Positions 6,380 to 32,442 of a stretch of DNA of 64,000 nucleotides are shown here, piece by piece; within the stretch, counting starts at the first letter, position 1, and every line of letters starts with the position of its first letter. The position numbers and the translations under genes were made by a program. This DNA comes from Rhodococcus sp. HM1. GTDB lineage: Bacteria; Actinomycetota; Actinomycetes; Mycobacteriales; Mycobacteriaceae. The stretch is taken from positions 124,001 through 188,000 of the forward strand of contig NZ_JALPTB010000002.1 in the NCBI RefSeq assembly GCF_023218075.1, read 5' to 3'. The notes under the pieces were generated by a model, which was not told where the DNA came from, ran no database searches, and was given only the letters and a program-made list of their open reading frames with translations.

Positions 6380-7846
6380 GTGGCACAGAACATCTCGAAG
6401 CTCTACATCGACGGCCGGTGGGTCGACAGTGAGTCGGATGTCGTCCTCGACGTCCTGAATCCGGCGACCGAGGAAGTGATCGGCCGGGTTCCGCAGGCCA
6501 CCGTCGGAGAGGTGAGCCGCGCCATCGACGCCGCGCGGCGCGCATTCGACGAGGGCCCGTGGCCGACGATGTCGCCCCGCGAGCGGGCTCAGGTGATGCT
6601 GAGAATGGCCGACGCGCTGGACAAGCGTCGCGCCGAGCTCGTGGAGCTGAACATCGCAGAGTCCGGCTCGACCCGGATGCTCGCCGAGTACCTGCAGGTG
6701 GGCATTCCGCTGCAGCACTTCCGCGACATGGCCGACCGCATCCTGCCGACTTTCTCGTTCGAGCGCGGGGTTCTGCCGACCATCGGTGACGGGATCGGTC
6801 AGGGCATCGTGGTCCGCGAACCGGCGGGGGTCGCGGTGCTCATCTCGGCGTACAACTTCCCGCTGTTCCTCAACATCATGAAGCTCGCCCCGGCCCTCGC
6901 CGCCGGCTGCACCGTGGTTCTCAAGCCCGCCCCGACCACCCCGCTCGAGGCCTTCGTCCTCGGTGAGATCGCCGACGAGGCAGGCCTTCCCGCGGGCGTG
7001 CTCAACATCGTGACGGGCGACATCGACGCCGGCCGGGAACTGACCACGAATCCGAAGGTCGATCTCGTCAGCTTCACAGGCTCCGACACCGTCGGTCGCC
7101 AGGTCTACGAGCAGGCCGCGCCGAGCCTCAAGAAGGTGGTCCTCGAACTCGGTGGCAAGTCCCCGAACATCATCTGCGAGGACGCCGATCTCGCCGCCGT
7201 CACCACATCCGTGATCGGCAACATGATCACCCATGCGGGACAGGGTTGCGCGCTGTTCACGCGCACCCTCGTGCATCGCTCCCGGTACGACGAGCTCGTC
7301 GCGGCCGTCAGCGCAGGACTGTCGATGGTCAAGGTGGGTGATCCCGCCGAACCGGACACCGTGATGGGGCCGCTGATCAGCGAAGCCCAGCGCAGCAAGG
7401 TCGAAGCGCTCATCGCCAGGGGTGTGGAACAGGGCGCCGAGATCGCGTTCGGTGGTGGTCGCCCGGCGCTCGAGAAGGGCTTCTTCGTCGAACCGACGCT
7501 GTTCGTCGACGTCGACAACTCCATGGACATCGCCCGCAAGGAGTTCTTCGGCCCGGTCGGCGTCATCATCCCGTTCGACGACGACGACCACGCGGTGCGC
7601 CTCGCCAACGACAGCGAGTACGGCCTCGGCGGCAGCGTGTACGCCTCCGACCCCGTACGGGCACTCGCCATCGCCCGGCGGATTCGTACCGGATTCGTCT
7701 CGCTCAACGGCGGTGGTGGGGGAGTCACCCCGCACATTCCGTTCGGGGGATACAAGCAGTCCGGCCTGGGTCGTGAATGGGGCGAGGCCGGCCTCGAGGA
7801 GTACCTGCAGACCAAGGCCATCACCTGGAGCGCAGCCCGCGGCTGA
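6380..7846 (+). CDS. NAD(P)+-dependent aldehyde dehydrogenase
   Basis: A 488-residue aldehyde dehydrogenase. The general base Glu256 lies in LELGGKSPN and the nucleophile Cys290 in GQGCALFTR; the cofactor-binding segment is GSDTVGRQVY and the C-terminal motif PFGGYKQSGLGRE. It starts at GTG 6380, giving the usual N-terminus (KLYIDGRWV). It would oxidise the aldehyde formed by the upstream mycofactocin-type SDR to a carboxylic acid that the CoA ligases here could activate. It sits 31 bp downstream of the SDR and 38 bp upstream of the P450, in one operon. Confidence 0.92.
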   Translation: MAQNISKLYIDGRWVDSESDVVLDVLNPATEEVIGRVPQATVGEVSRAIDAARRAFDEGPWPTMSPRERAQVMLRMADALDKRRAELVELNIAESGSTRMLAEYLQVGIPLQHFRDMADRILPTFSFERGVLPTIGDGIGQGIVVREPAGVAVLISAYNFPLFLNIMKLAPALAAGCTVVLKPAPTTPLEAFVLGEIADEAGLPAGVLNIVTGDIDAGRELTTNPKVDLVSFTGSDTVGRQVYEQAAPSLKKVVLELGGKSPNIICEDADLAAVTTSVIGNMITHAGQGCALFTRTLVHRSRYDELVAAVSAGLSMVKVGDPAEPDTVMGPLISEAQRSKVEALIARGVEQGAEIAFGGGRPALEKGFFVEPTLFVDVDNSMDIARKEFFGPVGVIIPFDDDDHAVRLANDSEYGLGGSVYASDPVRALAIARRIRTGFVSLNGGGGGVTPHIPFGGYKQSGLGREWGEAGLEEYLQTKAITWSAARG

Positions 7847-7884
7847 CGGCCCGCGCTCTCGTCGACTTCCACCTAAGGACGATC

Positions 7885-9105
7885 ATGACCCAGACGGAAC
7901 CCACACCCACGACGCCACCCGCGGGCAGGTGCCCCGTACACAACTTCAACTACGCCGAGTACAAGCCGGTGGGCGAGTGGTTCGCCCGCTACGACGAGTT
8001 CCGGGAGAAGTCGCCGATCTTCCGGAACGAATTCGGACCGGGGTACTACACGGTCTCCAACTACGAGGGCATCCTCAAGGTGATGCAGGACGCGGAGACG
8101 TTCTCCAACAGCGTCGTGACCCCGCTCGAGCCCAATCCGCAGTTCAAGTGGATTCCGGAGATGCTCGACGGTGACGAGCATCTGCAGTGGCGGAAGCAAC
8201 TCGGTCCGCTGTTCTCCCCGAAGACCACCGAGAAGCTGGACGCGAAGGTGCGGGAGCGGGCGATCGAGCTCGTCGAAGGGATCCAGGCGAAGGGCGGCGG
8301 CGCGACCGAGTTCATGGCCGAGTTCGCCCAGCAGTTCCCGACTTCGATCTTCCTGGAACTGATGGGGCTCCCCGTCGAGGAACTGCCGCAGTTCATGGAG
8401 TGGGAACACGCGATTCTCCACGCCTCGGACGACGATCTCGCAGCGCGCGAGGCCGCTCAGGTCGCGGCGATGCAGGCCGTGATGGGACGGTTCTACACGA
8501 CCATCACCGAGCGACGTGCCGAGCCGAAGGACGACATCGTCAGCAAGGCACTCGAATTCGAGATCGACGGCAAGCCCGTCAGCGACGAGGACCTGCTCTC
8601 GTTCTGCCTGCTGATGTTCATGGCCGGTCTCGACACCGTGTCGGTGACGCTCGGCTGGGCGTTCTACCACCTCGCGACGCATCCGGAGGATCGTGCCCGC
8701 ATCGTCGAGGATCCCGAACTGATCCCGGATGCGGTCGAAGAGATCCTGCGGGCGTACGCCATCGTGGTGCCGGCGCGGAAGGTCATGAAGGACACCGAGC
8801 TGCTGGGCTGCCCGTTGAAGGCCGGCGACATGGTGAATTTCGCACTCGCCGCGGCGAATCGCGACGAGGCCGTCTTCGAGAACGGCACCGAGGTCGACAT
8901 CACGCGGTCGCCGAACAATCACATCGCCTTCGGTGCGGGCCCGCACCGTTGCCTCGGTTCGCATCTGGCGCGGCGCGAGCTGCGTATCGCACTCGAGGAA
9001 TGGCACAAGAGGATTCCGGACTACCGGCTCGCTCCGGACGCGGAGCTCTTCGAAACCGGTGGTCAGCTCGGTCTGACCTCGCTCCCACTCCTGTGGGACA
9101 GCTAG
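7885..9105 (+). CDS. Cytochrome P450
   Basis: A 406-residue soluble bacterial P450. The haem-ligand motif is FGAGPHRCLGSHLA with Cys356 as thiolate ligand; the I-helix oxygen-activation motif is AGLDT (247-251) and the ExxR motif lies in EEILR. The start at ATG 7885 has AAGGA at 7875-7879. It probably hydroxylates the pathway substrate as the first step, using the 3Fe-4S ferredoxin encoded upstream. The substrate cannot be read from the sequence. Neighbouring alcohol and aldehyde dehydrogenases suggest terminal or side-chain methyl oxidation (inference). Confidence 0.93.
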   Translation: MTQTEPTPTTPPAGRCPVHNFNYAEYKPVGEWFARYDEFREKSPIFRNEFGPGYYTVSNYEGILKVMQDAETFSNSVVTPLEPNPQFKWIPEMLDGDEHLQWRKQLGPLFSPKTTEKLDAKVRERAIELVEGIQAKGGGATEFMAEFAQQFPTSIFLELMGLPVEELPQFMEWEHAILHASDDDLAAREAAQVAAMQAVMGRFYTTITERRAEPKDDIVSKALEFEIDGKPVSDEDLLSFCLLMFMAGLDTVSVTLGWAFYHLATHPEDRARIVEDPELIPDAVEEILRAYAIVVPARKVMKDTELLGCPLKAGDMVNFALAAANRDEAVFENGTEVDITRSPNNHIAFGAGPHRCLGSHLARRELRIALEEWHKRIPDYRLAPDAELFETGGQLGLTSLPLLWDS

Positions 9106-9160
9106 TCCGACTTGCCGTGCCGTTTCCACCAGCTCACCTTTCGAACCCGGGAGACGCATC

Positions 9161-10339
9161 ATGCCACTGCAAGATCACATGCATTTGATTTCCACCGACG
9201 ATCACCTGATCGAACACCCGCGATTGTGGTCGGACCGCTTGCCGTCGAAGTTCCTCGAGGCCGGCCCGAAGATCATCGAAAAGGCCATGCCGAGCGGTCT
9301 TTTCCCGGTCCCCGGCGCACCCGCCGGAACCCGGCTGGCGGAGGTATGGGAGTACGAGGGCCGGATCTACCCGTACATCGGCCTGAACGCGGTCGCGGGT
9401 AAGAAGCCCGAACAGTACGGCGTGGAACCCACACGCTACGAGGACATGCTTCCGGGATGCTACGACCCGAGCGCACGTGTGCTGGACATGGACATCGACG
9501 GAGTGCAGGCGGCACTGGCGTTCCCCTCGTTCCCCCGGTTCGCGGGCACGGTGTTCCTCGAAGGCGAGGACAAGGAACTCGCCCTGCTGTGCGTCAAGGC
9601 ATGGAACGATTACATGCTCGACGAGTGGTCTCCGACCGCCCCCGACCGGCTGATCCCCATCGTGATGCTCCCGCTGTGGTCGGTGGAGGAATGCGTGCGC
9701 GAGATCGAGCGGACGGCGGCCAAGGGAGCGAAAGCGATCACCTTCCCCGAGAATCCGGTGCCGCTGGGATTGCCGTCGTTCCATACCGATCACTGGGATC
9801 CGGTGCTGTCGGCAGCGGAGGCGGCGGGAATGCCGCTGTGCATGCACTTCGGCACGTCCGGTCAGGCGCCGATCACCGCTCCCGAGGCCCCGATGGCCGT
9901 GATGATCGCACTGTTCGGGTGCAACTCGATGTACGCGACGGCGGATCTGCTGTTCTCCCCGGTCTTCCACAAGCACCCGAACCTGAGGGTGATGATGTCC
10001 GAAGGCGGAATCGGCTGGGCGCCGTACCTGCTGGAGCGGATGGATCAGACCTGGGAGAAGCACCGGTTCTACCAGAACATCGACCAGTCGGCACGGCCGT
10101 CGGAGTTGTTCGCCGAACACATCTTCGGCTGCTTCATCGACGATCAGTTCGGGATCGACAACCGGCATGCCATCGGGATCGACAACATCACCTGGGAATG
10201 CGACTACCCCCATTCCGATTCGAACTGGCCGAACAGCCGCAAGCGCGTGCACGACGCCATGCTCGACGTTCCGGACGAGGACGTGCACAAGATGGTCGAA
10301 CTGAACGCCCGCCGACTGCTGAACTTCCCCCGTCTCTGA
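9161..10339 (+). CDS. Amidohydrolase family protein (PF04909-like, ACMSD-related)
   Basis: A 392-residue metal-dependent TIM-barrel hydrolase or decarboxylase. The N-terminal metal motif reads STDDHLIEH, followed by GVQAALAFPSFPRFAG, and the C-terminal metal/acid region includes WECDYPHSDSNWP. Family members hydrolyse C-N bonds or decarboxylate aromatic acids. Close relatives recur next to P450 and CoA-dependent catabolic genes in actinobacteria, where their reaction is not established. It is in the same orientation, 55 bp after the P450. Confidence 0.85.
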   Translation: MPLQDHMHLISTDDHLIEHPRLWSDRLPSKFLEAGPKIIEKAMPSGLFPVPGAPAGTRLAEVWEYEGRIYPYIGLNAVAGKKPEQYGVEPTRYEDMLPGCYDPSARVLDMDIDGVQAALAFPSFPRFAGTVFLEGEDKELALLCVKAWNDYMLDEWSPTAPDRLIPIVMLPLWSVEECVREIERTAAKGAKAITFPENPVPLGLPSFHTDHWDPVLSAAEAAGMPLCMHFGTSGQAPITAPEAPMAVMIALFGCNSMYATADLLFSPVFHKHPNLRVMMSEGGIGWAPYLLERMDQTWEKHRFYQNIDQSARPSELFAEHIFGCFIDDQFGIDNRHAIGIDNITWECDYPHSDSNWPNSRKRVHDAMLDVPDEDVHKMVELNARRLLNFPRL

Positions 10340-22999: not shown

Positions 23000-23046
23000 G
23001 TGATTCGGAATCCGCCCACGCTACAGGGTGGGCGGATTCCGAATCA
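23000..23046. repeat. Hairpin repeat, copy A (also terminator of the QorB-like gene)
   Basis: A perfect 19-bp inverted repeat, 23001-23019 and 23028-23046, with an 8-base loop; the core arm is GGCGGATTCCGAATCA. It aligns without gaps to copies at 24052-24098 and 31848-31894. It starts 9 bp after the QorB-like stop and is strong enough to act as terminator. Confidence 0.8.
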
Positions 23047-23161
23047 TGCGGCGCATCAACCGATCCGACGGTTGTGCACAGGCGCGTCGTTCATCCACAG
23101 AAGTCCTGATTTCGGCTCGGAGTGGGTGGTTCGGCCGGATGGGATCGGGCAGGGTCGCCTC

Positions 23162-24055
23162 ATGACCGACCCTCGACCACTGACCCGAACGCACCTGCTC
23201 GCGACGGGCTTCTCGGACGACCACATTCGTGCCGCGGTGCGGGCCGGCGACCTCGTCGCCCTCACGCGAGGTGTGTACCTGTGGCGCGCCGATCATGACC
23301 GGCTGGACGACCCCGCACGTCACCGGGTGCGGGCGCGGCACGTCGCGTCGACGATGCCGCCCGGCGCGGTGATCAGCCATGTCTCGGCGGCAACGCTCCT
23401 GAACCTGGACGTGTGGAACATCGATCTCGCGCAGGTGCACGTCTCCCGCACCGGATCGCACGGTCGCCGCACCCGGCACCTGCACGTGCACGCGACCACC
23501 TGGACCGACGATGACGTCGTCGACGTGGACGGTCTCGCTGTCACCTCTCCCGCACGCACCGTCGTGGACCTCTCCCGGGCTCTTCCTCTGGACCAGGCAG
23601 TGGTCGTCGGGGACTCGGCCCTGCGGAACTACCCGGACACGCTGGATCTGCTGCCCGCGGCGTTGGCGTCGGCCCGCCATCGCAGCGGGATCGCGCGGGC
23701 CGCGGCAGTCGTGCCGTTCCTCGACGCGCGCAGTGAAAGTCCCGGGGAATCGCTGTCGCGGGTGCGGATCGCAGAGAGCGGACTGCCTCGTCCCGTGCTC
23801 CAGCATCCGATCGTGTTGCGCGACGGACGACGCGTCCGTCTCGACTTCTTCTGGGAGCGGCACGGGGTGGCCGGCGAGTTCGACGGGGCCGGCAAGTACG
23901 CCGACCGTCGCGACGTGTTCGCCGAGAAACTCCGCGAGGACGCGCTGCGCGATCTCGGTCTCGAGGTCGTCCGCTGGACGTGGGCCGATCTGACGCGGTT
24001 CGACGTCGTCGCACAGCGATTCGAGCGGGCAGTCGCCCGGCAATCCACGCGGTGA
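23162..24055 (+). CDS. AbiEi-antitoxin-like winged-helix protein with C-terminal endonuclease-like (DUF559/Vsr-type) domain
   Basis: A 297-residue protein. Residues about 1-120 look like the AbiEi-type winged-helix region (TRTHLLATGFSDDHIRAAVR, LVALTRGVYLW, VISHVSAATLLNL). The C-terminal 100 residues have a PD-(D/E)XK-like pattern: GESLSRVRIAESGLP, RVRLDFFWERHGVAGEFDG, and EKLREDALRDLGLEVVRWTW, resembling Vsr/DUF559 nucleases. This pairing is common as a lone gene in actinobacteria; activity is unproven. It lies between repeat copies A and B and next to a conflict operon, which fits an accessory or defence role. ATG 23162 is the first start after the hairpin. Confidence 0.75.
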   Translation: MTDPRPLTRTHLLATGFSDDHIRAAVRAGDLVALTRGVYLWRADHDRLDDPARHRVRARHVASTMPPGAVISHVSAATLLNLDVWNIDLAQVHVSRTGSHGRRTRHLHVHATTWTDDDVVDVDGLAVTSPARTVVDLSRALPLDQAVVVGDSALRNYPDTLDLLPAALASARHRSGIARAAAVVPFLDARSESPGESLSRVRIAESGLPRPVLQHPIVLRDGRRVRLDFFWERHGVAGEFDGAGKYADRRDVFAEKLREDALRDLGLEVVRWTWADLTRFDVVAQRFERAVARQSTR

Positions 24056-24115: not shown

Positions 24116-24823
24116 TCAGCCCAGCAGTGCGGCCTCGAGCGCCGTCCGCACTGCGTCGGGTTCGGGCGCGACGACCGTGACGAGCGGGGACACCGCGGTC
24201 GCGGCGAGCAGATCCGCGGCGCGGCCGGTGCCCGCCAGCACGAGAACCGGGCGCCCCTCGGCCAGCGACTGTGTGACGTCGTCGCGCGCGATCCCGCCGC
24301 CGTTCGCGAGCACCGTGACGACGGGCGATCCCGCTGCAAGGGTTTCGGCGACAGCCCCGAGCCACGGCGTTTCGTCGCCCCAGTGATCCCCCGCGACGGC
24401 GACGATGTGGGTGTGATTCGGTTCCAGCGCGGCCGAATCGGGCAGTGTCCCGTCGTGTCCGGGCCAGCGCACCGTTCCTTCCGCGACGATCCCGAGATGC
24501 ACTCCCTGGGCGCCGCTCCGGCGGCGTTCCCGTCCGACCAGTCCGATCACCCCGGAGTCCGTGCCGCCGTCGATCAAGGTCGCGCCGAAGGATTCGATCA
24601 TCGCGACGAGCGGGACGAACAGGCGCTCGCAGAGAGCGGCGTCCGACGGTGCCATACCGTCCGCACCCCCGACGAGGACCACTGCGGGGGCACCGGGGGA
24701 CACACCGGTTGCTCGCAGCAGTGCGGTGAGTCGGTCTCCCGGTCGCGGCGGTGTACCCGGCGGGATACGGATCAGGGCCAGCTCCCGTCCACCCACCTCG
24801 ACCACGTCGCTGCCGACCGTCAC
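24116..24823 (-). CDS. TRPM-type SLOG domain protein (LSDAT_prok-like)
   Basis: A 235-residue Rossmann-like protein. Hallmarks of the SLOG fold as seen in TRPM channels and prokaryotic homologues are VVLVGGADGM, FGATLIDGGTDSGVIGLVG, HTHIVAVAGDHWGDETPW and VVTVLANGGGIARDDV. SLOG domains bind or process nucleotides such as ADP-ribose derivatives and are used as sensors or effectors in conflict systems (family knowledge). GTG 24823 overlaps the stop of the protease gene (GTGA), with GGGAGGTGG upstream, so it is the last gene of the operon. A sensor or producer of a nucleotide signal for its partners is inferred. Confidence 0.72.
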   Translation of the reverse strand: MTVGSDVVEVGGRELALIRIPPGTPPRPGDRLTALLRATGVSPGAPAVVLVGGADGMAPSDAALCERLFVPLVAMIESFGATLIDGGTDSGVIGLVGRERRRSGAQGVHLGIVAEGTVRWPGHDGTLPDSAALEPNHTHIVAVAGDHWGDETPWLGAVAETLAAGSPVVTVLANGGGIARDDVTQSLAEGRPVLVLAGTGRAADLLAATAVSPLVTVVAPEPDAVRTALEAALLG

Positions 24824-26421
24824 GCCACCTCCCTGGCCTGGGGTGCGCGGTGTGCGAGCGCCGCGCGGAGGGCACCGACCGTGATCGCCTCGTTCGCCGA
24901 GTACGTACCGCCCTTGTGGTTCAGTAGCGGGATGTCGACGCCGCCTGCGTGGTGCAACCCGATGAGCCGCCACTGGTCGTCGAACACCGGACTGCCGGAG
25001 CTGCCTCCCTCGGTGGGCGAACGATAGTGCACCCGGGTGTCATCGTAGTCGAGCACGATGTTGTCCTGGAGCGAGAACTGCGGCTGTTGGAGACCGCGCG
25101 GGTGCCCGATCAGATACGCACGGGGCGGACGGGGTTCGAGTGCGGGCAGGCGTGCCGCGACGGGCAACGGTTCGAGGTCGCCGGGCCAGCCGTCCAGTTC
25201 CAGGACGGAGGTGTCCAGCCCCGCGCCGTCGGACGGGGCGTACCACCAGCAGCGCACCGGCCGGAAGCGGTCCGTGCAGGCGTCCAGCGCATGGAACACG
25301 ACCACCGCGTCGCCGGCGGCAACCCCCTCGGGCACGACATGTCCGTTGGTGACGAGCACCCGCTCCGGCAGGTCCGGATGCAGATCCCGGCCGTCGACGA
25401 CGAACCCGGTCCCGACCCCGTCCTCCGACGGTGTGCACACCTGCGCGACCGCGCGGCACCGCGACAGCCCGTGGCGGTACCACGTCAACGACTGGTAGCG
25501 GTCGTGGCCGAACACCTTCTCGAGGTGGGCGAGCCGGGCCGTGCCGACATCGCGATCGCGGACCAGCACGCCGCCGCCGTCGCGATGCAGAAGCGCCGAG
25601 CGCAGCAGCGGCAGCATGGTGTCGCCGGGCGCGGCCGCGGTGGTCAGTTCCCACACCTCCACCAGCTGCCGCAGCAGCGCGGCGATCTTGAACGCATCGA
25701 CTCCCGGATCGGCGAGAAACGCGTCGAGCCATGTATCGGCACCTGCAGGATCGCCGAGTGCGACCTCCGCTTCGCAGGCGGTGGCAGCGCCCCACGCGTC
25801 GGGTTCGGCCGCGGTCTCGATCGCACCGAGCACCTGGGCGGCGAGTGCGCGGGACAACACGGCGGGATCGGCGATTCCGGGGACGGCGAGGCCGTCCCGA
25901 TGTGCGCGGGCGAGCAGGGCTGCCGCATTGATCGCGTGCCACGGCCGGGCCGGTGCCTCGTCACGCGCCGTCAGATACGCGTCGAGTGACATTCGCAGGT
26001 GGTGCGCCCGACGCGGGAGGTCGCCGGTGGTGAGGAACAACTGTTTGTGGCACCGGCCGATCCCACCGCGCGCCTCGATCCGCTCCGACGCCGGCGTGTC
26101 CGGATCGTCGGCCAGCTCGGAATAGAGATGCAATGCGGCCGCCGGCATACCCCGGTCGACGAGCGCCTGGGCGTACTGCCGCCGCACCGCAGGAAGGTCG
26201 AGTCCGCGACCCAGTGCGGCGTCCGCGACGGCAATCACGTCGTCGAATCTGCGGTACCGGCGCAACCCGGCGAGCATCCGCATGACCTCTGCCGGAGGCT
26301 GTTCGGCCGATCCGCGCAGGAATCGGCAGTACTCCTGGACGATTCGGCCCACCTCCGGCCAGTCGAAAGTGCCTGCAGAGCGGGCGATCCGGTCGATCCA
26401 GGCGACGTCGACGGTCGTCAT
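24820..26421 (-). CDS. TPR/TRAFs-binding-like domain fused to trypsin-like serine protease
   Basis: A 533-residue protein, two parts. Residues about 45-310 are helical repeats resembling the DUF4071/TRAFs-binding TPR region (RRQYAQALVDRGMPAAALHL, PWHAINAAALLARAH). Residues about 320-525 are a trypsin-like protease with His361 in LVTNGHVV, Asp403 in GLDTSVLEL and Ser475 in GGSSGSPVFD. There is no signal peptide, so it acts in the cytoplasm. Such proteases occur as effectors in bacterial nSTAND/SLOG conflict operons. The start ATG 26421 overlaps the hydrolase stop (ATGA). Target cleavage on signalling by its partners is inferred. Confidence 0.75.
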   Translation of the reverse strand: MTTVDVAWIDRIARSAGTFDWPEVGRIVQEYCRFLRGSAEQPPAEVMRMLAGLRRYRRFDDVIAVADAALGRGLDLPAVRRQYAQALVDRGMPAAALHLYSELADDPDTPASERIEARGGIGRCHKQLFLTTGDLPRRAHHLRMSLDAYLTARDEAPARPWHAINAAALLARAHRDGLAVPGIADPAVLSRALAAQVLGAIETAAEPDAWGAATACEAEVALGDPAGADTWLDAFLADPGVDAFKIAALLRQLVEVWELTTAAAPGDTMLPLLRSALLHRDGGGVLVRDRDVGTARLAHLEKVFGHDRYQSLTWYRHGLSRCRAVAQVCTPSEDGVGTGFVVDGRDLHPDLPERVLVTNGHVVPEGVAAGDAVVVFHALDACTDRFRPVRCWWYAPSDGAGLDTSVLELDGWPGDLEPLPVAARLPALEPRPPRAYLIGHPRGLQQPQFSLQDNIVLDYDDTRVHYRSPTEGGSSGSPVFDDQWRLIGLHHAGGVDIPLLNHKGGTYSANEAITVGALRAALAHRAPQAREVA

Positions 26422-27353
26422 TCGAGGACCTGACGCAGGAAATCGCGGAGTCGGGGCTGGCCGAGATACTTGCCGATGCTGTGCCGCCAACTGCCGGTGT
26501 TCGACACCCCGACATCGGCGACCTTCCGCTGTCCGGCATGCAGGAAGTCGCCCGCGATCTGCCGGTCGAGTAATCCGCAGACCGGGTCGAGCGGGTCGTA
26601 TACGTTGGTCCATCGGCCGTCGCCGAGGCACCGCGCCGGCCAGCCGTCGTTGCGAGTCCACGGTGGCGTCAGCCCGTCCTGGACCTCCGAGATCCCCAAC
26701 GGGCTACCGACGGTGAGCAGCGCATCCACGCGCGGGGCGTCGTTGATCGCGGTCAGGGCGTCGTAGGCGATGACGCTGCCCAGGCTGTGTCCGACGACGA
26801 CGTGGGGTCCGGGCTGGGAATCGCCTTCCTGCAAGGCTTTCAAAGCTCGCTCGCGGATATCGCTGCGAATTCGGAAGGTTTCGCCCGGTCGCGGCGTGAA
26901 CGAAGCGTCGTAGAGGAAATGATGCACGTCGCGCAGGAACACCTGCATCAGCCGCTTCTTCATCGCGGGTGGCAGCGGGATCGCCTCCAGTTCCGTGTCC
27001 GGCAGCACGAGCGTTTCGCACTCGCCGGGAACGGGTTCGACCGTGGCGACTCCGACCTCGCGGCCCAGACGTTCGACGAACTCCCGCTCGTCGTCGGGCA
27101 GTTCGCAGATCCAGCCCGGATCCTGGACCTCGAACTCGGCGGCATCGTCCGGCCCGAGGGTGGACTCGTGGGCGGTGAACGCGGCAGCGGGCTGCGCGTA
27201 GAGCATGTCCGCCCAGTACACCATCGACGAGGTGACACCCATGGCGTCGAGGTCGAGGCCGTCGTCGTCGAACAGCGCGATCCGCCATTGGTCCAGAAGT
27301 TCGTCGGGGGCGGGCTTGTTGCCGATGCCGTGGACAAACGTTACGTGAGGCAT
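26418..27353 (-). CDS. Alpha/beta-hydrolase (serine hydrolase) of the conflict operon
   Basis: A 311-residue alpha/beta-hydrolase. It starts HVTFVHGIGNKPAP (oxyanion-loop HG) and has nucleophile Ser190 in VVVGHSLGSVIAYDAL. The acid is probably in NVYDPLDPVCG and the catalytic His in SWRHSIGKYLG. It resembles lipase- or esterase-like effectors of bacterial conflict systems; the substrate (lipid, ester or peptide) is unknown. It has no signal peptide. A GAAGGAG ribosome site precedes ATG 27353, and 15 bp separate it from the upstream TIR-STAND gene. It is the second gene of a four-gene operon. Confidence 0.78.
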   Translation of the reverse strand: MPHVTFVHGIGNKPAPDELLDQWRIALFDDDGLDLDAMGVTSSMVYWADMLYAQPAAAFTAHESTLGPDDAAEFEVQDPGWICELPDDEREFVERLGREVGVATVEPVPGECETLVLPDTELEAIPLPPAMKKRLMQVFLRDVHHFLYDASFTPRPGETFRIRSDIRERALKALQEGDSQPGPHVVVGHSLGSVIAYDALTAINDAPRVDALLTVGSPLGISEVQDGLTPPWTRNDGWPARCLGDGRWTNVYDPLDPVCGLLDRQIAGDFLHAGQRKVADVGVSNTGSWRHSIGKYLGQPRLRDFLRQVLE

Positions 27354-27368
27354 GGTGGTACTCCTTCG

Positions 27369-30300
27369 TCATTCGGTGTCGGTGCCGGGGGGAAGGTTCG
27401 GGCACAGCGGCTCGGGTTCGATGTCGGGGGAGATCCACTCGTGCCATTCCTCATCGGTCATGTTGCGGGTGAGTTTGGAACACAACATGTTCGACGCCTC
27501 CTCAGGGGTTGACGGTGGAAGGTTCCAGATCCGGAGGGTGCCATCTGTCCCGCCCGAGACGAGGCGCCTTCCGTCGGAGGTGAATGCGATGGCCGCTGCC
27601 CACCCCGCGTGGCCGGTCATGGGTACCGCGATCAGCCGTCCGGTCTCGGCGTCCCAGAGACGGATGTCGCCCTCGGAGCCGCCGGAGACGATGTAGCGCC
27701 CATCCGGGCTGTATTCGACGCCGGCCGCCCCGCCGCGGTGTCCGGGCATCTCCGGTCCGAGGAGCCGCCCGGTTTCGGTGTCCCACTGCCGCAACGCGGA
27801 GTCCGTTCCGCCGGCGACGATGCGAGTGCCGTCCGGACTGATTCCGACGGGGAACACGGCGGCCTTGTCCCCGGATTCCACGGTATCGATCGACTGTCCG
27901 GTTTCCGGATCCCACAGCTGGAGACCCTGGACGAACGAAACCGAGAAGATCCGGTGGCCGTGTGCGGCGAACCCGACCACCTGCACTTCGGGCCCGACTC
28001 GGATGGGATCGCCGATCGGTTGGCCGGTGTCGGCGTTCCACAGTCGAACGGTGCCGTCGTCGCCTCCGGATACCAGGCGGTGACCGTCGGGGCTGAAGTC
28101 GATTGCGTTGACTGTGCCCTCGTGCCGGGCCTGGACAGGATCGCCGATCGGTTGGCCGGTGTCGGCGTTCCACAGTCGAACGGTGCCGTCGTCGCCTGCG
28201 GAGGCGAGCCGGCGGCCGTCGGGGCTGAAGTCGACGGTCCGGACGGCACCTTGTTGTCCGGTGAGTGGAGCTCCGACGGGCAGGCCGGTGCCGATGTCCC
28301 ACACTCGAACGGTGCCGTCGTCGCCGCCGGAGACGAGGCGGTGCCCATCGTCCGTGGTCGCAATGGCTTGAATGGCACCGTGGTGCCCGGCGAGGGTTCC
28401 CAGCGGTTTTCCGGTGTCGAGGTCCCACAGGCGCAGAGACTCGTCGTCCAGGCTCGCGGACACGATGCGGCGGCTGTCCGTGTCGGTCGTGATGCCGTAG
28501 ACCATCCCGGCGTCGCCGGTCACCGGCAGTGCGGTGGTCGCGTCCCACGTCCGCACCGTCGCATCCCATCCCGCCGACAGCAACTGTCGGCCGTCCGGGC
28601 TGAATGCCATACCGGTCACGGGCCCGTCATGACCGGTGAGAGGTACGCCGATGGGTTGCTGCCGGTCGGTGTCCCAGGCGCGGATCGTCCCGTCGAATCC
28701 TCCCGAGACGACGCGTCGTCCGTCGGTGTCGAAGGCGACACTTGTCGCCGGACTCGGGGTAATCATGGGGTCGCCGATCTCACGGTGCGTTCCGACATTC
28801 CACAGTCGCACGGTGCCGTCGTCGCTGCCCGACACGATCTGCCGGCTGTCCGGGCTGAACGCGAGTGCCGTGACGACCCGAGTATGGCCCGTCATCGTCT
28901 CACCGACGAGGTCGTACCCAGGAGTGGACAGATTCCACAACCGGATTCCGTTGTCGGCGCTTCCGGTAGCGAGCCATCGTCCGTCCGGGCTGAACGCGGT
29001 CGACTGCACCGAACCACCGACGAGTGCGGTCACCGGTTCGCCGTCGAGCTGCCCGGTGTTCGGATCCCACCAGCGGAGCGCCCCATCGGATTGCGTCGAA
29101 AGGATCCGGGATCCGTCGTCGGTGAATGCCAGGCTCGACACCATCGCCGTCGGGTCGTTTGTCGGGCTGCCGATCGGTTGGCCTGTCGTGGAATCCCATA
29201 CACGGACGACGCCGGCGTAGTCGCCCGATGCGATTCGCTTTCCATCCGGACTGAATACCGTCCGGAACACGCCCATGTCGCCGTGCTGCATCGGGTCGAG
29301 GACGGGCAGACCGGTTTGCGAATCCCACACTCGCACAGTGCCGGCATCGTCACCGGTGACGATGAGTGTGCCGTCGGGACTGTAGGTGGCGCTGTGGATC
29401 AACGCCGGAGCTTCGATGATCTTCAGGATGTCACGACGGGCGACGAGTGCGCCGAGCAGTGCACCGGAATCCGTTTCGGCGACATGGGGAGCGGCGAGCA
29501 GCTGATCGATCGCACGAACCTCACTCCCGATGCTGCCACCGGCGAGAACCGACTGAGCCTCGGCCACCAGCCGCGACGCGACCGCCTCGTCGCTTCGAGT
29601 GTCGGCGAGGCGCTCGGAGTGCAGCGCCCAGCCGGATGCAGCGGTTGCGGCGAGGGCAACGACGACCATCCCTGCAAGTACCGTCCGCAGCTTCCGCGAC
29701 TGCTTCTGCAGGACGGTGGCGTATTCCTGAGCTTTCTGCCTCGCTTCCGTTTCCGCAACGGCCAGCGCTTCCGCCGCCTCTTGCTTCTCTCGCGCCGCCT
29801 CCAACTCCGCTTCGCGGCGGAGCTTTTCGTCGGCAACACGTTGGTCCTCCCGTTGCCGCGATGCGAGGAGGTACGGTCGAACCGGACTGAGGCGGTCCCG
29901 GAAGCCCTTTCGCGCAGACAAGGTTTCGGCGTCGGTCAGACGTTCGCCCTCGAGTAGCCACGCCTCTTGCCGATTGTTCTTCCGCCACGCCGCGGCAGCT
30001 CGTTCGAGCGCGTCGGCCTCCCGGAGGTTGTCGCGTTCCTCGTGGAGCCAGCCGGCGAGGTCGGTCCATTGCCGCAGCAGGCTTTCCAGGGCGACTTCGA
30101 CGACGACGTCGCCGTCGCGCTCACCTTTGACGAGGAGCCGACGCGCGACCATCGCGTCGAGCAGCGGCCGGCTCTGCGCGGGTAGGTCGGACCAGCGGGC
30201 GAGGCGGCGCATCGGCTGGTCGGTGTACTGGTCGATGTTCGCCAGCCACGGGACGAACGCGGCGCGCAGGTGCTCGAGTTGTGTGCTGCGTTCGTCGGGA

Positions 30301-31736
30301 TCGGAGGAAAGCAGGTTGTCGATCTCGGTCTGGACGACCGCGTGCATGCCACCCATCGCCGTGTATTCGGCGAGGGTGAGTCGCCCGGAGCTGCCGTAGT
30401 CCTCGTGCAGCCGGGCCATGGTGAGGGCCAGCAGCGGGAGGGTGTCGGCGCCTTGCCCGCACGCGGACAGCAGCCGGTTCAGCAGGGCGGGCTCGACCTC
30501 GAGGGGACGTCCCGCGGCGGTGGCGCGGGCCGCGGGACCGCACACGACTTCCTTGAACTCGGTGCGCGGCATCGGTTTGAGCTCGTTGAACAGTTCGGAT
30601 CGCACGTCCGTCAGCTCCGGGACGGTTTGCAGCGTCTCGAAACGGTCGGAGCGAATCGTCGCTGCGACGAGTAGCAGGGGCTCGTCGTCGCCGGGGGAGT
30701 GACGTGTGATGCGGGCGAGCAGTGTCAGAAACTGCGACGCCTGGGGTCCCGCGTCCGCCGCGAACAGTTCTTCGGCCTGATCGACCGGCAGGATCAGGGT
30801 CGGCAGGGGTGTATTGCCGGTGTCATGGAGCAGCCGGTCGGATGCCTTCTGTCGAATCTCCCTCAGCCACTGGGTGACCCGTGCGGCATCGCCCGATCGA
30901 CACGTCGCTTTGATCTCACCCAGCGGGGGTGCGGGCAACCCCAATTCGGTGCGTGTCGTATGAATCGCGCGGGCCAGTCCGTGCTCGCCGGTCAACGCGG
31001 CGCGCTCGGGGCGCACGATGCCCAGGGGGAGGAAGTGCCGGTCGTCGCGGCGCAACCGGGGGAGCAGGCCCGCTCGCAGAAACGACGACTTGCCCGCACC
31101 GGACGGCCCCAGCACGACGAACAGCGACGCGGACCCCGACGCCCGCATGCCCCGCAGTTTGTCGAGCCCACTGATGATCTGCTCGTCGCGGCCGAAGAAG
31201 ACGGCGGCGTCCTGCTCTTCGAGAGGTTCCCACCCGCGGTAAGGAGCCCGGTCCGGGTCGCCGGGCGGTGGCCACGCGAAATGTTCGGCACCCACCCCGG
31301 CGTCGCGCAGGCCGCGCAGCAGCCTTCGCAGCCCCTCGGTACGGAACACGATCGGTTCGCCGTCGACCGTGATCTCGGTGGTCGGCCCGTCACCGAACAG
31401 GTCGCAATGTTGCCATTCGTGGGTGTACCGGCCGGCCGTCGCGTCGAGGCGGGCGCAGAAGATCCGTTTGTTCAGAGTTTCGGCAGTGCGGTATTCGTTG
31501 GTGCATTCCTGCGACGACTCCCAGTCGGTCGAGAGCAGGCACACGACGGCCTCGCAGCGTGCCGCGGTCCGGGTGAGCGCATCGCGCCACCGCACCCCCG
31601 GCGCCAGCCCGGTCTCCGGATCGATGTCGAGGAAGATCTCCCCGGCCAGGCTCGGTTCGTTCTCGACGAGCCAGCGCATGAGCGCGACCGCCTGCCGGCT
31701 GTCTCGGCTGGAATGGCTCAGGAATATGCGGGTCAT
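27369..31736 (-). CDS. TIR-nSTAND-WD40 protein (bacterial NLR-like sensor/effector)
   Basis: 1455 residues. TIR domain at 1-150 (IFLSHSSRDSRQAV; LLSTDWESSQECTNEY with Glu81 at the NADase glutamate position). nSTAND NTPase at about 170-600 with Walker A GPSGAGKSSFL (210-220) and Walker B LPTLILPVDQAEE (Asp319). A charged coiled coil at about 630-685, one membrane segment at about 686-705 (VLAGMVVVALAATAASGWAL), then about 15 WD40 repeats (780-1400) with FSPDG, DGTVRLW and DTG motifs. This is the architecture of self-versus-nonself sensors: the repeats recognise a trigger, the NTPase oligomerises and the TIR depletes NAD+. It heads the operon; function is inferred from architecture. Confidence 0.88.
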   Translation of the reverse strand: MTRIFLSHSSRDSRQAVALMRWLVENEPSLAGEIFLDIDPETGLAPGVRWRDALTRTAARCEAVVCLLSTDWESSQECTNEYRTAETLNKRIFCARLDATAGRYTHEWQHCDLFGDGPTTEITVDGEPIVFRTEGLRRLLRGLRDAGVGAEHFAWPPPGDPDRAPYRGWEPLEEQDAAVFFGRDEQIISGLDKLRGMRASGSASLFVVLGPSGAGKSSFLRAGLLPRLRRDDRHFLPLGIVRPERAALTGEHGLARAIHTTRTELGLPAPPLGEIKATCRSGDAARVTQWLREIRQKASDRLLHDTGNTPLPTLILPVDQAEELFAADAGPQASQFLTLLARITRHSPGDDEPLLLVAATIRSDRFETLQTVPELTDVRSELFNELKPMPRTEFKEVVCGPAARATAAGRPLEVEPALLNRLLSACGQGADTLPLLALTMARLHEDYGSSGRLTLAEYTAMGGMHAVVQTEIDNLLSSDPDERSTQLEHLRAAFVPWLANIDQYTDQPMRRLARWSDLPAQSRPLLDAMVARRLLVKGERDGDVVVEVALESLLRQWTDLAGWLHEERDNLREADALERAAAAWRKNNRQEAWLLEGERLTDAETLSARKGFRDRLSPVRPYLLASRQREDQRVADEKLRREAELEAAREKQEAAEALAVAETEARQKAQEYATVLQKQSRKLRTVLAGMVVVALAATAASGWALHSERLADTRSDEAVASRLVAEAQSVLAGGSIGSEVRAIDQLLAAPHVAETDSGALLGALVARRDILKIIEAPALIHSATYSPDGTLIVTGDDAGTVRVWDSQTGLPVLDPMQHGDMGVFRTVFSPDGKRIASGDYAGVVRVWDSTTGQPIGSPTNDPTAMVSSLAFTDDGSRILSTQSDGALRWWDPNTGQLDGEPVTALVGGSVQSTAFSPDGRWLATGSADNGIRLWNLSTPGYDLVGETMTGHTRVVTALAFSPDSRQIVSGSDDGTVRLWNVGTHREIGDPMITPSPATSVAFDTDGRRVVSGGFDGTIRAWDTDRQQPIGVPLTGHDGPVTGMAFSPDGRQLLSAGWDATVRTWDATTALPVTGDAGMVYGITTDTDSRRIVSASLDDESLRLWDLDTGKPLGTLAGHHGAIQAIATTDDGHRLVSGGDDGTVRVWDIGTGLPVGAPLTGQQGAVRTVDFSPDGRRLASAGDDGTVRLWNADTGQPIGDPVQARHEGTVNAIDFSPDGHRLVSGGDDGTVRLWNADTGQPIGDPIRVGPEVQVVGFAAHGHRIFSVSFVQGLQLWDPETGQSIDTVESGDKAAVFPVGISPDGTRIVAGGTDSALRQWDTETGRLLGPEMPGHRGGAAGVEYSPDGRYIVSGGSEGDIRLWDAETGRLIAVPMTGHAGWAAAIAFTSDGRRLVSGGTDGTLRIWNLPPSTPEEASNMLCSKLTRNMTDEEWHEWISPDIEPEPLCPNLPPGTDTE
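28006..28197 (-). repeat. Identical 60-bp segments in adjacent WD40 repeats
   Basis: 28006-28065 and 28138-28197 are identical over 60 bp, one 132-bp (44-codon) WD40 unit apart. They encode the DDGTVRLWNADTGQPIGDP segment of two adjacent blades, and neighbouring units are also close. This points to recent unit duplication or gene conversion. Confidence 0.85.
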
Positions 31737-31847
31737 CGTCCGCTCCGCTCGCTGCGGGGAAACTATGACCTCAGCGTTCCGCGCGGTGTCGTCGCAGGCA
31801 CGAGTAGCCGACTACTCGATTTTCGCCGTCGCCTGCCGATCGACGCG

Positions 31848-31894
31848 GTGACTGCGAATCCGCTCACTCTGCAGTGCGAGCGGATTCCGAATCG
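31848..31894. repeat. Hairpin repeat, copy C
   Basis: Aligns without gaps to copies A and B and contains GCGGATTCCGAAT. It overlaps the stop and last codons of the CMD-like gene and lies about 110 bp upstream of the TIR-nSTAND start, so copies B and C bracket the conflict operon in the same orientation. Confidence 0.7.
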
Positions 31895-32442
31895 GTGGGC
31901 GAGTTCGACGCGGGGAAATCGCGTTCGATGCGCAGGGTGCGGATCGTGGTCGCCAGACCGTCGTATTGCGTGATCAGCAGGCAGAATTCGATCAAGCGGC
32001 GGACGTCGAGGTGCTCGGCCAGCGCCGACCACGTCTCGTCGGTGAGGTCCTTGGTCGCGACCAGTTCGTCGACTGCGGCGAGCAGCGCACGGTGACGCGG
32101 GCTCCACCCCTCGGCCTGCGGCCCCTCGATGACACGCTGCAGGATCTCGGCGGTCACACCCGCGCGACGACCGAGCCGCACGTGGTGGTCCATCTCGTAG
32201 TCGCAGCCGCGCAGGTGCGCGACGCGCAGGATGACGAGTTCGGATTCGTGGCGGGGGAGCTTGCCGCCGGGCATCAGCTTGCCGGAGTAGTGCAGCCAGC
32301 CGCGGAACAGGCCGCCGGCGCGACCCAGTGTGCCGAACAGGTGCGCGTCCGAGGTTCCTGCCGCCAGTGACAGGACGCGCCAGGCGATCCAGTTGACCGG
32401 GCCGAGTTGACGGAACCGTCCGGGCGTGATGCGGGGCGTCAT
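31864..32442 (-). CDS. Carboxymuconolactone decarboxylase/AhpD-like family protein
   Basis: 192 residues, CMD fold. The key segment is HESELVILRVAHLRGCDYEMDHHVRLGRRAGV. For comparison, AhpD has a CxxC plus His; here the second cysteine is replaced (CDYE), leaving one Cys and the following His, so a classical disulfide reductase role is unlikely. ATG 32442 starts 5 bp after the GntR stop, in the same minus-strand string. A similar gene lies between lpd and ramB in mycobacteria as I recall, so it may be part of the ancestral backbone. The C-terminal residues are encoded by repeat copy C. Confidence 0.8.
   Translation of the reverse strand: MTPRITPGRFRQLGPVNWIAWRVLSLAAGTSDAHLFGTLGRAGGLFRGWLHYSGKLMPGGKLPRHESELVILRVAHLRGCDYEMDHHVRLGRRAGVTAEILQRVIEGPQAEGWSPRHRALLAAVDELVATKDLTDETWSALAEHLDVRRLIEFCLLITQYDGLATTIRTLRIERDFPASNSPTDSESARTAE

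Follow-up and report, generated by a model that had tools for sequence, protein, structure and literature searches.

The hydrolase and protease genes of a four-gene operon in Rhodococcus sp. HM1 form a conserved two-gene module found in several phyla, and the four genes together are not a fixed set. The operon spans positions 24116-31736, on the minus strand, of the 64,000-nucleotide stretch of contig NZ_JALPTB010000002.1 that was analysed (hereafter the window, to which all coordinates without a locus name refer) and encodes a TIR-STAND-WD40 protein (gene 1), an alpha/beta hydrolase (gene 2), a serine protease with a TPR-S sensor domain (gene 3) and an LSDAT-type SLOG protein (gene 4). It probably acts in defence against viruses. 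As the best overall explanation, which in our estimate has about an even chance of being right, we hypothesize an abortive-infection operon, mobile or often lost, in which a messenger made by the TIR domain would be received by TPR-S and would switch on a V8-like protease that, with the hydrolase, would kill or stall the cell, the LSDAT protein tuning the signal. The proposal draws on the domains, their intact catalytic residues, the conserved pair, the recurrent linkage to TIR and two sister genomes that lack or have lost the operon; from these we infer the biochemical steps, the order of events and the trigger.

The pair is seen in a scan of the contigs of 84,980 species (genome_contigs) with a six-sequence hydrolase profile, which returned 45 loci. 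A gene 3 homologue directly follows the hydrolase on the same strand in 40 of the 45, a count that the bait inflates, five of the six profile sequences having been taken from pair loci. Pair loci occur in five named phyla (Actinomycetota, Pseudomonadota, Bacteroidota, Acidobacteriota and Nitrospirota). A search of plasmids baited with gene 3 suffers less from this bias: in its six best records (H1-H6, four of them inspected) the hydrolase always stands directly before the protease, and among the matches listed (best 20 of 45 matched records) the similarity of the other 14 to gene 3 is confined to the protease domain. The hydrolase of one plasmid (L036) has no neighbouring TPR-S protease, and five of the 45 loci fall outside the pair pattern: L045, where a pentapeptide-repeat gene is next to the hydrolase; L046; L059, which also contains a complete pair besides its unpaired hydrolase; L069; and L087, whose contig ends 94 bases past the hydrolase. 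In L069, the gene adjoining the hydrolase relative (7481-9619, divergent) is a Trypsin_2-Endonuclease I fusion. The initial annotation of this DNA had made its idea of one four-gene system depend on co-inheritance, and the neighbourhoods divide the genes: protease and hydrolase are co-inherited, TIR is intermediate (21/45 loci) and LSDAT is not constant. A fixed four-gene system was dropped because LSDAT occurs in 1/45 and nSTAND1 in 3/45 of the related loci, many of whose contigs are cut. The nearest relative, L043, from a Pseudonocardiales metagenome-assembled genome (hydrolase 65% identical), shares the gene order hydrolase, TPR-S protease, LSDAT with the window and has a divergent TIR-WD40 gene; in Sinorhizobium K101, hydrolase, TPR-S protease and TIR-STAND genes stand in a row, the TIR 36% and the STAND 41% identical to those of the window.

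The protease half of the module can be of another type. Distant hydrolase relatives (24-30% identical) lie beside caspases on three inspected plasmids (L037, L039 and L042), and at one Agrobacterium plasmid site, with flanks (ParB-like and helicase proteins) 77-84% identical among L034, L035 and L037, the first two carry hydrolase and TPR-S protease and the third a caspase and a hydrolase relative. The same site thus holds either content, the protease type changing as a hydrolase stays. On two Streptomyces plasmids, distant hydrolase relatives overlap AAA family ATPase genes with WD40 matches (L038 1172-6837, L041 5725-11090).

Other genes accompany the pair. A GH108 lysozyme-type domain, checked in Pfam on three, lies upstream of the hydrolase, its end 26-80 bases away, in 12 of the 45 loci and in plasmid locus L028 (L028, L067, L068, L072, L073, L074, L076-L080, L083 and L087) and is a possible third, cell-wall effector. 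A Lipase_3 gene, a second lipase-type enzyme in the gene run, immediately precedes the hydrolase in L052 (8542-9993) and L055 (4221-5945). A conserved domain without family assignment, provisionally called 'SLOGX', is found near the pair in 12/45 loci and L028 (for example L076 7376-9427, L080 378-2426, L087 2762-4177); it is fused to TPR-S in four of 13 rows, including L076 and L080, and to GH108 in L087. Its assignment to SLOG was rejected: although two of the 13 rows match YAcAr (best E 0.0011), comparison with the LSDAT profile showed no relation (probability 0.2), and no solved structure matched.

The features of the operon and its borders are as follows.

27369..31736, minus strand: gene 1 (P0001), 1455 aa; TIR, nSTAND1 NTPase, possible transmembrane helix, WD40 beta-propeller
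31389..31727, minus strand: TIR domain, gene 1 aa 4-116; TIR_2, catalytic-type Glu at aa 81
29964..31244, minus strand: nSTAND1 NTPase, gene 1 aa 165-591; Walker A GPSGAGKSS at aa 210
27495..29405, minus strand: WD40 repeats, gene 1 about aa 778-1414; 14 stretches, outer limits approximate
26418..27353, minus strand: gene 2 (P0002), alpha/beta hydrolase, 311 aa; S190, D253, D256, H291, variable insert aa 64-122
24820..26421, minus strand: gene 3 (P0003), TPR-S - V8/trypsin-like serine protease, 533 aa; H361, D403, S475
25912..26244, minus strand: TPR-S sensor domain, gene 3 aa 60-170; PF20308, R123, K126, Y149, N165 invariant
24955..25413, minus strand: Trypsin_2 protease domain, gene 3 aa 337-489; Pfam match E 1e-18
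24116..24823, minus strand: gene 4 (P0004), LSDAT_prok / TRPM-type SLOG, 235 aa; GTG start, PF18171
24029..24105, plus strand: left copy of the 77-bp direct repeat bracketing the operon
31825..31901, plus strand: right copy of the 77-bp direct repeat, 79% identical to the left copy

The genes run in one direction, separated from gene 1 to gene 4 by a 15-bp gap and two 4-bp overlaps, which supports a single operon; gene placement, spacing and operon were all as first annotated. Searches with hidden Markov models (HMMs) made firm the earlier calls of TIR, nSTAND and WD40 domains, trypsin protease and TRPM-type SLOG, and the residues named with them are present (E81, S190, S475 in GSSGSP, Walker A from 210). 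No sigma-70 type promoter was found for the operon, and Rfam at gathering scores gave no match anywhere in the 64-kb window. In gene 1, Pfam matches TIR_2 (E 2.7e-10, first 160 aa searched alone), nSTAND1 (E 1.1e-68, aa 161-770 searched alone) and WD40 (E 1.6e-111, over the C-terminal part), so that an NTPase with Walker A motif is joined to C-terminal repeats in the manner of a STAND sensor; E81 is invariant in 39/39 aligned TIR domains. For the membrane segment also annotated there, the best 19-residue hydrophobic window starts at aa 686 with a mean of 1.88, so that a helix is plausible, not strong. In the 6.9-Mb host genome TIR_2, LSDAT and TPR-S have a single match each at E 0.001, all within this operon; a second nSTAND1 protein with a stronger match (370 bits) is encoded elsewhere (L115, G000:C238).

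Gene 3 matches Trypsin_2 (E 1e-18) and TPR-S (PF20308, E 1.7e-10). Among 29 protease rows (25 of the 40 pair proteases, three from plasmids and that of the window), Pfam finds Trypsin_2 in all and TPR-S in 25; in the 26 rows compared, the catalytic residues H361, D403 and S475 and, in the TPR-S region, R123, K126, Y149 and N165 are invariant. The best solved-structure match of the protease profile by sequence is V8 glutamyl endopeptidase (1qy6, E 2.2e-10); T470 and H490, likewise invariant in 26/26 rows, align with V8 residues that we take to be the Glu-binding T164 and H184. By sequence, TPR-S itself resembles part of a human stress kinase, the TPR region of MAP3K5/ASK1 (5ulm, E 3.3e-5). The initial annotation had thus recognised both halves of the protein, TPR and trypsin, and had missed that the first is the domain which Pfam names 'Tetratricopeptide Repeats-Sensor' and that the second is V8-like. 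Burroughs and Aravind are said to have predicted in 2020 that TPR-S senses NAD-derived signals; experiments on the domain were not found in the literature searched. Given that Pfam identifies the TPR domain as a sensor, the protease is likely to be the receiver of the TIR signal; for the predicted binding of an NAD-derived ligand by TPR-S, conserved polar residues are what the sequences show.

The hydrolase is less readily classified: its best Pfam match, Abhydrolase_6, scores 25.9 bits, under the cut-off of 26.3, and no family matches above cut-off. The annotation as an alpha/beta hydrolase is nevertheless upheld by its catalytic residues, S190 (in GHSLG), D253, D256 and H291 being invariant in 41/41 aligned homologues (40 of the 45 loci plus the window; L050, L061, L078, L083 and L087 excluded). 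E63 and E123 are equally invariant and bound a widely variable stretch, aa 64-122. The hydrolase is absent from PADLOC-DB (2023; 0/41 matched), the four operon proteins give partial matches only in PADLOC (the WD40 part to a HEAT-ARM model, 2.1e-50), and the protease domain matches weakly there (0.001-0.004). Hydrolase relatives in viral contigs were also sought; 13 pattern matches contained no true relative.

The link between TIR and the protease-hydrolase pair, proposed when the operon was first annotated, is borne out by recurrence, enrichment and proximity. An HMM seeded with five TIR domains and rebuilt once from its matches placed TIR open reading frames (ORFs) in 21 of the 45 hydrolase loci; Pfam recognises TIR_2 in all 34 such ORFs (32 in the 45 loci, two in L028) at E 0.001 or better, that of L043 lying under the Pfam cut-off (25.9 vs 28 bits). 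TIR near the pair is about 50-fold over background (30 seen in 638 kb of flank vs 0.61 expected from 183 TIR_2 in 192 Mb, 42 genomes of the loci; L045, L070 and L087 excluded), a ratio that is approximate because the seen and background counts use different models. With a weak domain in L073 filtered out, 14 of 31 TIR domains are at most 1.3 kb from the pair vs 6.2 expected if evenly spread (p ~6e-4). On the hydrolase tree, 'TIR in same operon', a label given by eye to 11 rows according to strand and spacing, needs nine changes, at least seven by well-supported branches; operonic TIR is scattered and was not inherited once, because shuffled labels average 9.9 changes. Downstream of the pair in L053 (13540-14262), a prokaryotic YEATS domain is fused to TIR.

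Gene 4 is a clear LSDAT_prok protein (PF18171, Pfam 'SLOG in TRPM, prokaryote', E 1.3e-49); its best solved-structure matches, weak by sequence, are TRPM2 channels (best E 0.00048), and its GGT (aa 86-88) is invariant in 8/8 LSDAT rows. Nine LSDAT loci were compared (window, L019, L020, L021, L022, L030, L031, L033 and L043), and because TIR lies within the stretch in four of them (window, L019, L021 and L043), LSDAT may go with TIR more than with the pair, small as these numbers are. One strand of L021 (6217-18000) carries genes for a patatin, for LSDAT and for two TIR-STAND proteins whose TIR and STAND are 46-56% identical to those of the window, together with an ORF that has no match in Pfam.

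Full-length gene 3 occurs in one of 18 genomes of the genus and one of 397 genomes of an order sample; in 396 Actinomycetota genomes the protease profile, at E 1e-40, retrieved no copy other than that of the window, and the matches to gene 3 at E 1e-10, in three other genus genomes and at another site in the host, are restricted to the protease domain. Two imperfect 77-bp direct repeats, 79% identical, bracket the operon; the repeat is an imperfect palindrome and is dispersed, 12 places having been found in the host genome. A third copy in the window (23000-23056), which folds strongly (z -8.55), lies at the start of an ORF (23000-24055) that looks DUF559/AbiEi-like by eye. The possibility that the flanking repeats are part of this neighbour gene was rejected, no homologue of it being found near other repeat copies (eight loci). 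One sister genome (G004) has a single repeat copy, no operon and the same flanks, either the state before insertion or an excision. Another (G017) keeps both repeats with roughly the final 164 bp of gene 4 and the initial 56 bp of gene 1, and because of these remnants the operon was present in an ancestor of G017 and was lost at least once; in the scar (L108 ~7150-7420), the gene 4 end is directly joined to the gene 1 start, about 7.4 kb being missing. The one-repeat site and the scarred copy are natural comparisons for the intact operon.

How might the operon work? The WD40/nSTAND1 protein would detect an invader signal and cluster, whereupon its TIR domain would convert NAD+ into a nucleotide messenger. 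Bound by TPR-S, this messenger would switch on the V8-like serine protease, and protease and co-transcribed hydrolase would then kill or stall the cell; the hydrolase, a putative lipase or esterase, would most likely be partner or substrate of the protease, and the LSDAT/SLOG protein may bind or process the same NAD-derived nucleotide, tuning the signal. Domain make-up and TIR linkage are in keeping with the conflict system initially annotated. It is possible, and we offer it tentatively, that the pair belongs to a class of effectors, spread across phyla, that has not been described before. In it, a pro-hydrolase would be gated by its hypervariable acidic insert (Glu63-Glu123), which a glutamyl-endopeptidase-like partner would cut after a TIR-made nucleotide has bound to TPR-S. 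Such a module would parallel the nuclease-protease pairs but cleave lipids or esters, and would have caspase versions on other plasmids. The invariant E63 and E123 around a variable insert fit such gating; neither stays invariant once five more distant relatives, beside caspases or AAA ATPases, join the alignment.

Several observations, besides the bait effect in the pair count, weigh against the overall scheme. E63 and E123 may be structural, because they are retained in four hydrolases without an adjacent TPR-S protease (L045, L046, L059 and L069). No TIR was found within the flanks examined in 24/45 loci, some on short contigs, so that the pair may act alone or TPR-S may respond to signals of another kind. 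Part of the TIR enrichment could stem from defence islands generally, an effect addressed by the even-spread proximity control only. Finally, LSDAT adjoins the pair only in the window and L043.

Three other explanations were considered. V8-like proteases can be broad, and the protease alone might be the executioner, degrading cell proteins when activated by the TIR product, with the hydrolase as an independent second effector or regulator and not a substrate. Type IV Thoeris, in the portion of its description consulted (PMC12847820), provides a precedent for a TIR-signalled protease; the near-obligate adjacency of the hydrolase (40/45) and the caspases adjoining its relatives nevertheless suggest a tighter pair and make this doubtful. 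Alternatively, the TIR protein could itself be the effector and deplete NAD+, as its catalytic-type Glu would allow, the other three genes being accessory or belonging to another system on the shared transcript; the TIR-STAND proteins without the pair in L021 and the 24 loci without TIR are consistent with this, but TIR is enriched and near the pair in many lineages and the sole TIR_2 and sole TPR-S of the host share this operon, and we consider it unlikely. That the operon serves stress or developmental signalling, as WD40/STAND proteins in actinomycetes can, would suit its neighbours, which by eye look like ordinary metabolic, regulator and transport genes, and the lack of hydrolase relatives in viral_contigs, but is very improbable given the patchy spread of gene 3, the loss scar and one-repeat site in sister genomes and the relatives located on plasmids.

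The abortive-infection scheme with which we began is of a known kind, nucleotide-signalled and protease-executed, in a variant not found described: full-text literature, in which few subscription papers or preprints were covered, yielded no description of the hydrolase-TPR-S-protease pair or of this operon. The operon resembles the TPR-S signal systems reportedly described by Burroughs and Aravind in 2020, with TIR and SLOG domains as makers or readers of the signal, in fusing TPR-S to an effector (PF20308 and Trypsin_2 in P0003) and in linking TIR and LSDAT in one operon, TIR also occurring in 21/45 related loci; the conserved hydrolase partner and the four-gene set may be differences. If the scheme is true, TPR-S, a named sensor domain, would connect a TIR signal with a serine protease. 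Unlike type I Thoeris, the operon has no SIR2-SLOG ThsA, its SLOG gene being an unfused LSDAT_prok; no SIR2 family appears in the full Pfam lists for genes 2-4 and gene 1 aa 1-770, nor among the best 25 of 61 families for the WD40 part. In type IV Thoeris, according to the part of the account consulted, N7-cyclic ADP-ribose (N7-cADPR) made by TIR activates a caspase-like protease of the same operon (PMC12847820). Here too one operon encodes a TIR enzyme (TIR_2 E 2.7e-10, E81 in 39/39), predicted to be an NADase, and a protease predicted to be nucleotide-activated; unlike there, the protease is of the Trypsin_2/V8-like serine type with TPR-S, and a hydrolase, LSDAT and a STAND/WD40 sensor fused to TIR are added. 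According to the sections consulted of PMC9503650, TIR and SLOG domains make, read and possibly process NAD-derived signals. The passages seen of PMC8195603 and PMC7159879 present nSTAND1 NTPases and list TIR, trypsin and alpha/beta-hydrolase domains as conflict-system effectors, all three being fused to bDLD3 as effectors of one system type (PMC8195603); the present operon differs from what those passages describe in its TRPM-type SLOG and in a TPR-S protease gene paired with a hydrolase gene. The closest parallel to the pair, within the excerpt consulted, is offered by the nuclease-protease pairs found in Hachiman, AVAST and caspase-nuclease (canu) loci, in which cleavage occurs at two conserved isoleucines (PMC12799240): these likewise join a protease, trypsin-like or caspase, to another enzyme in a recurrent two-gene unit that different sensor systems use. 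Unlike there, the partner here is an alpha/beta hydrolase with Ser-Asp-His and not a metallo-beta-lactamase (MBL) nuclease, and proteolytic activation is only proposed; a compact cross-phylum unit of this kind would bear on whether proteases activate lipid-type hydrolases in bacteria as they do nucleases.

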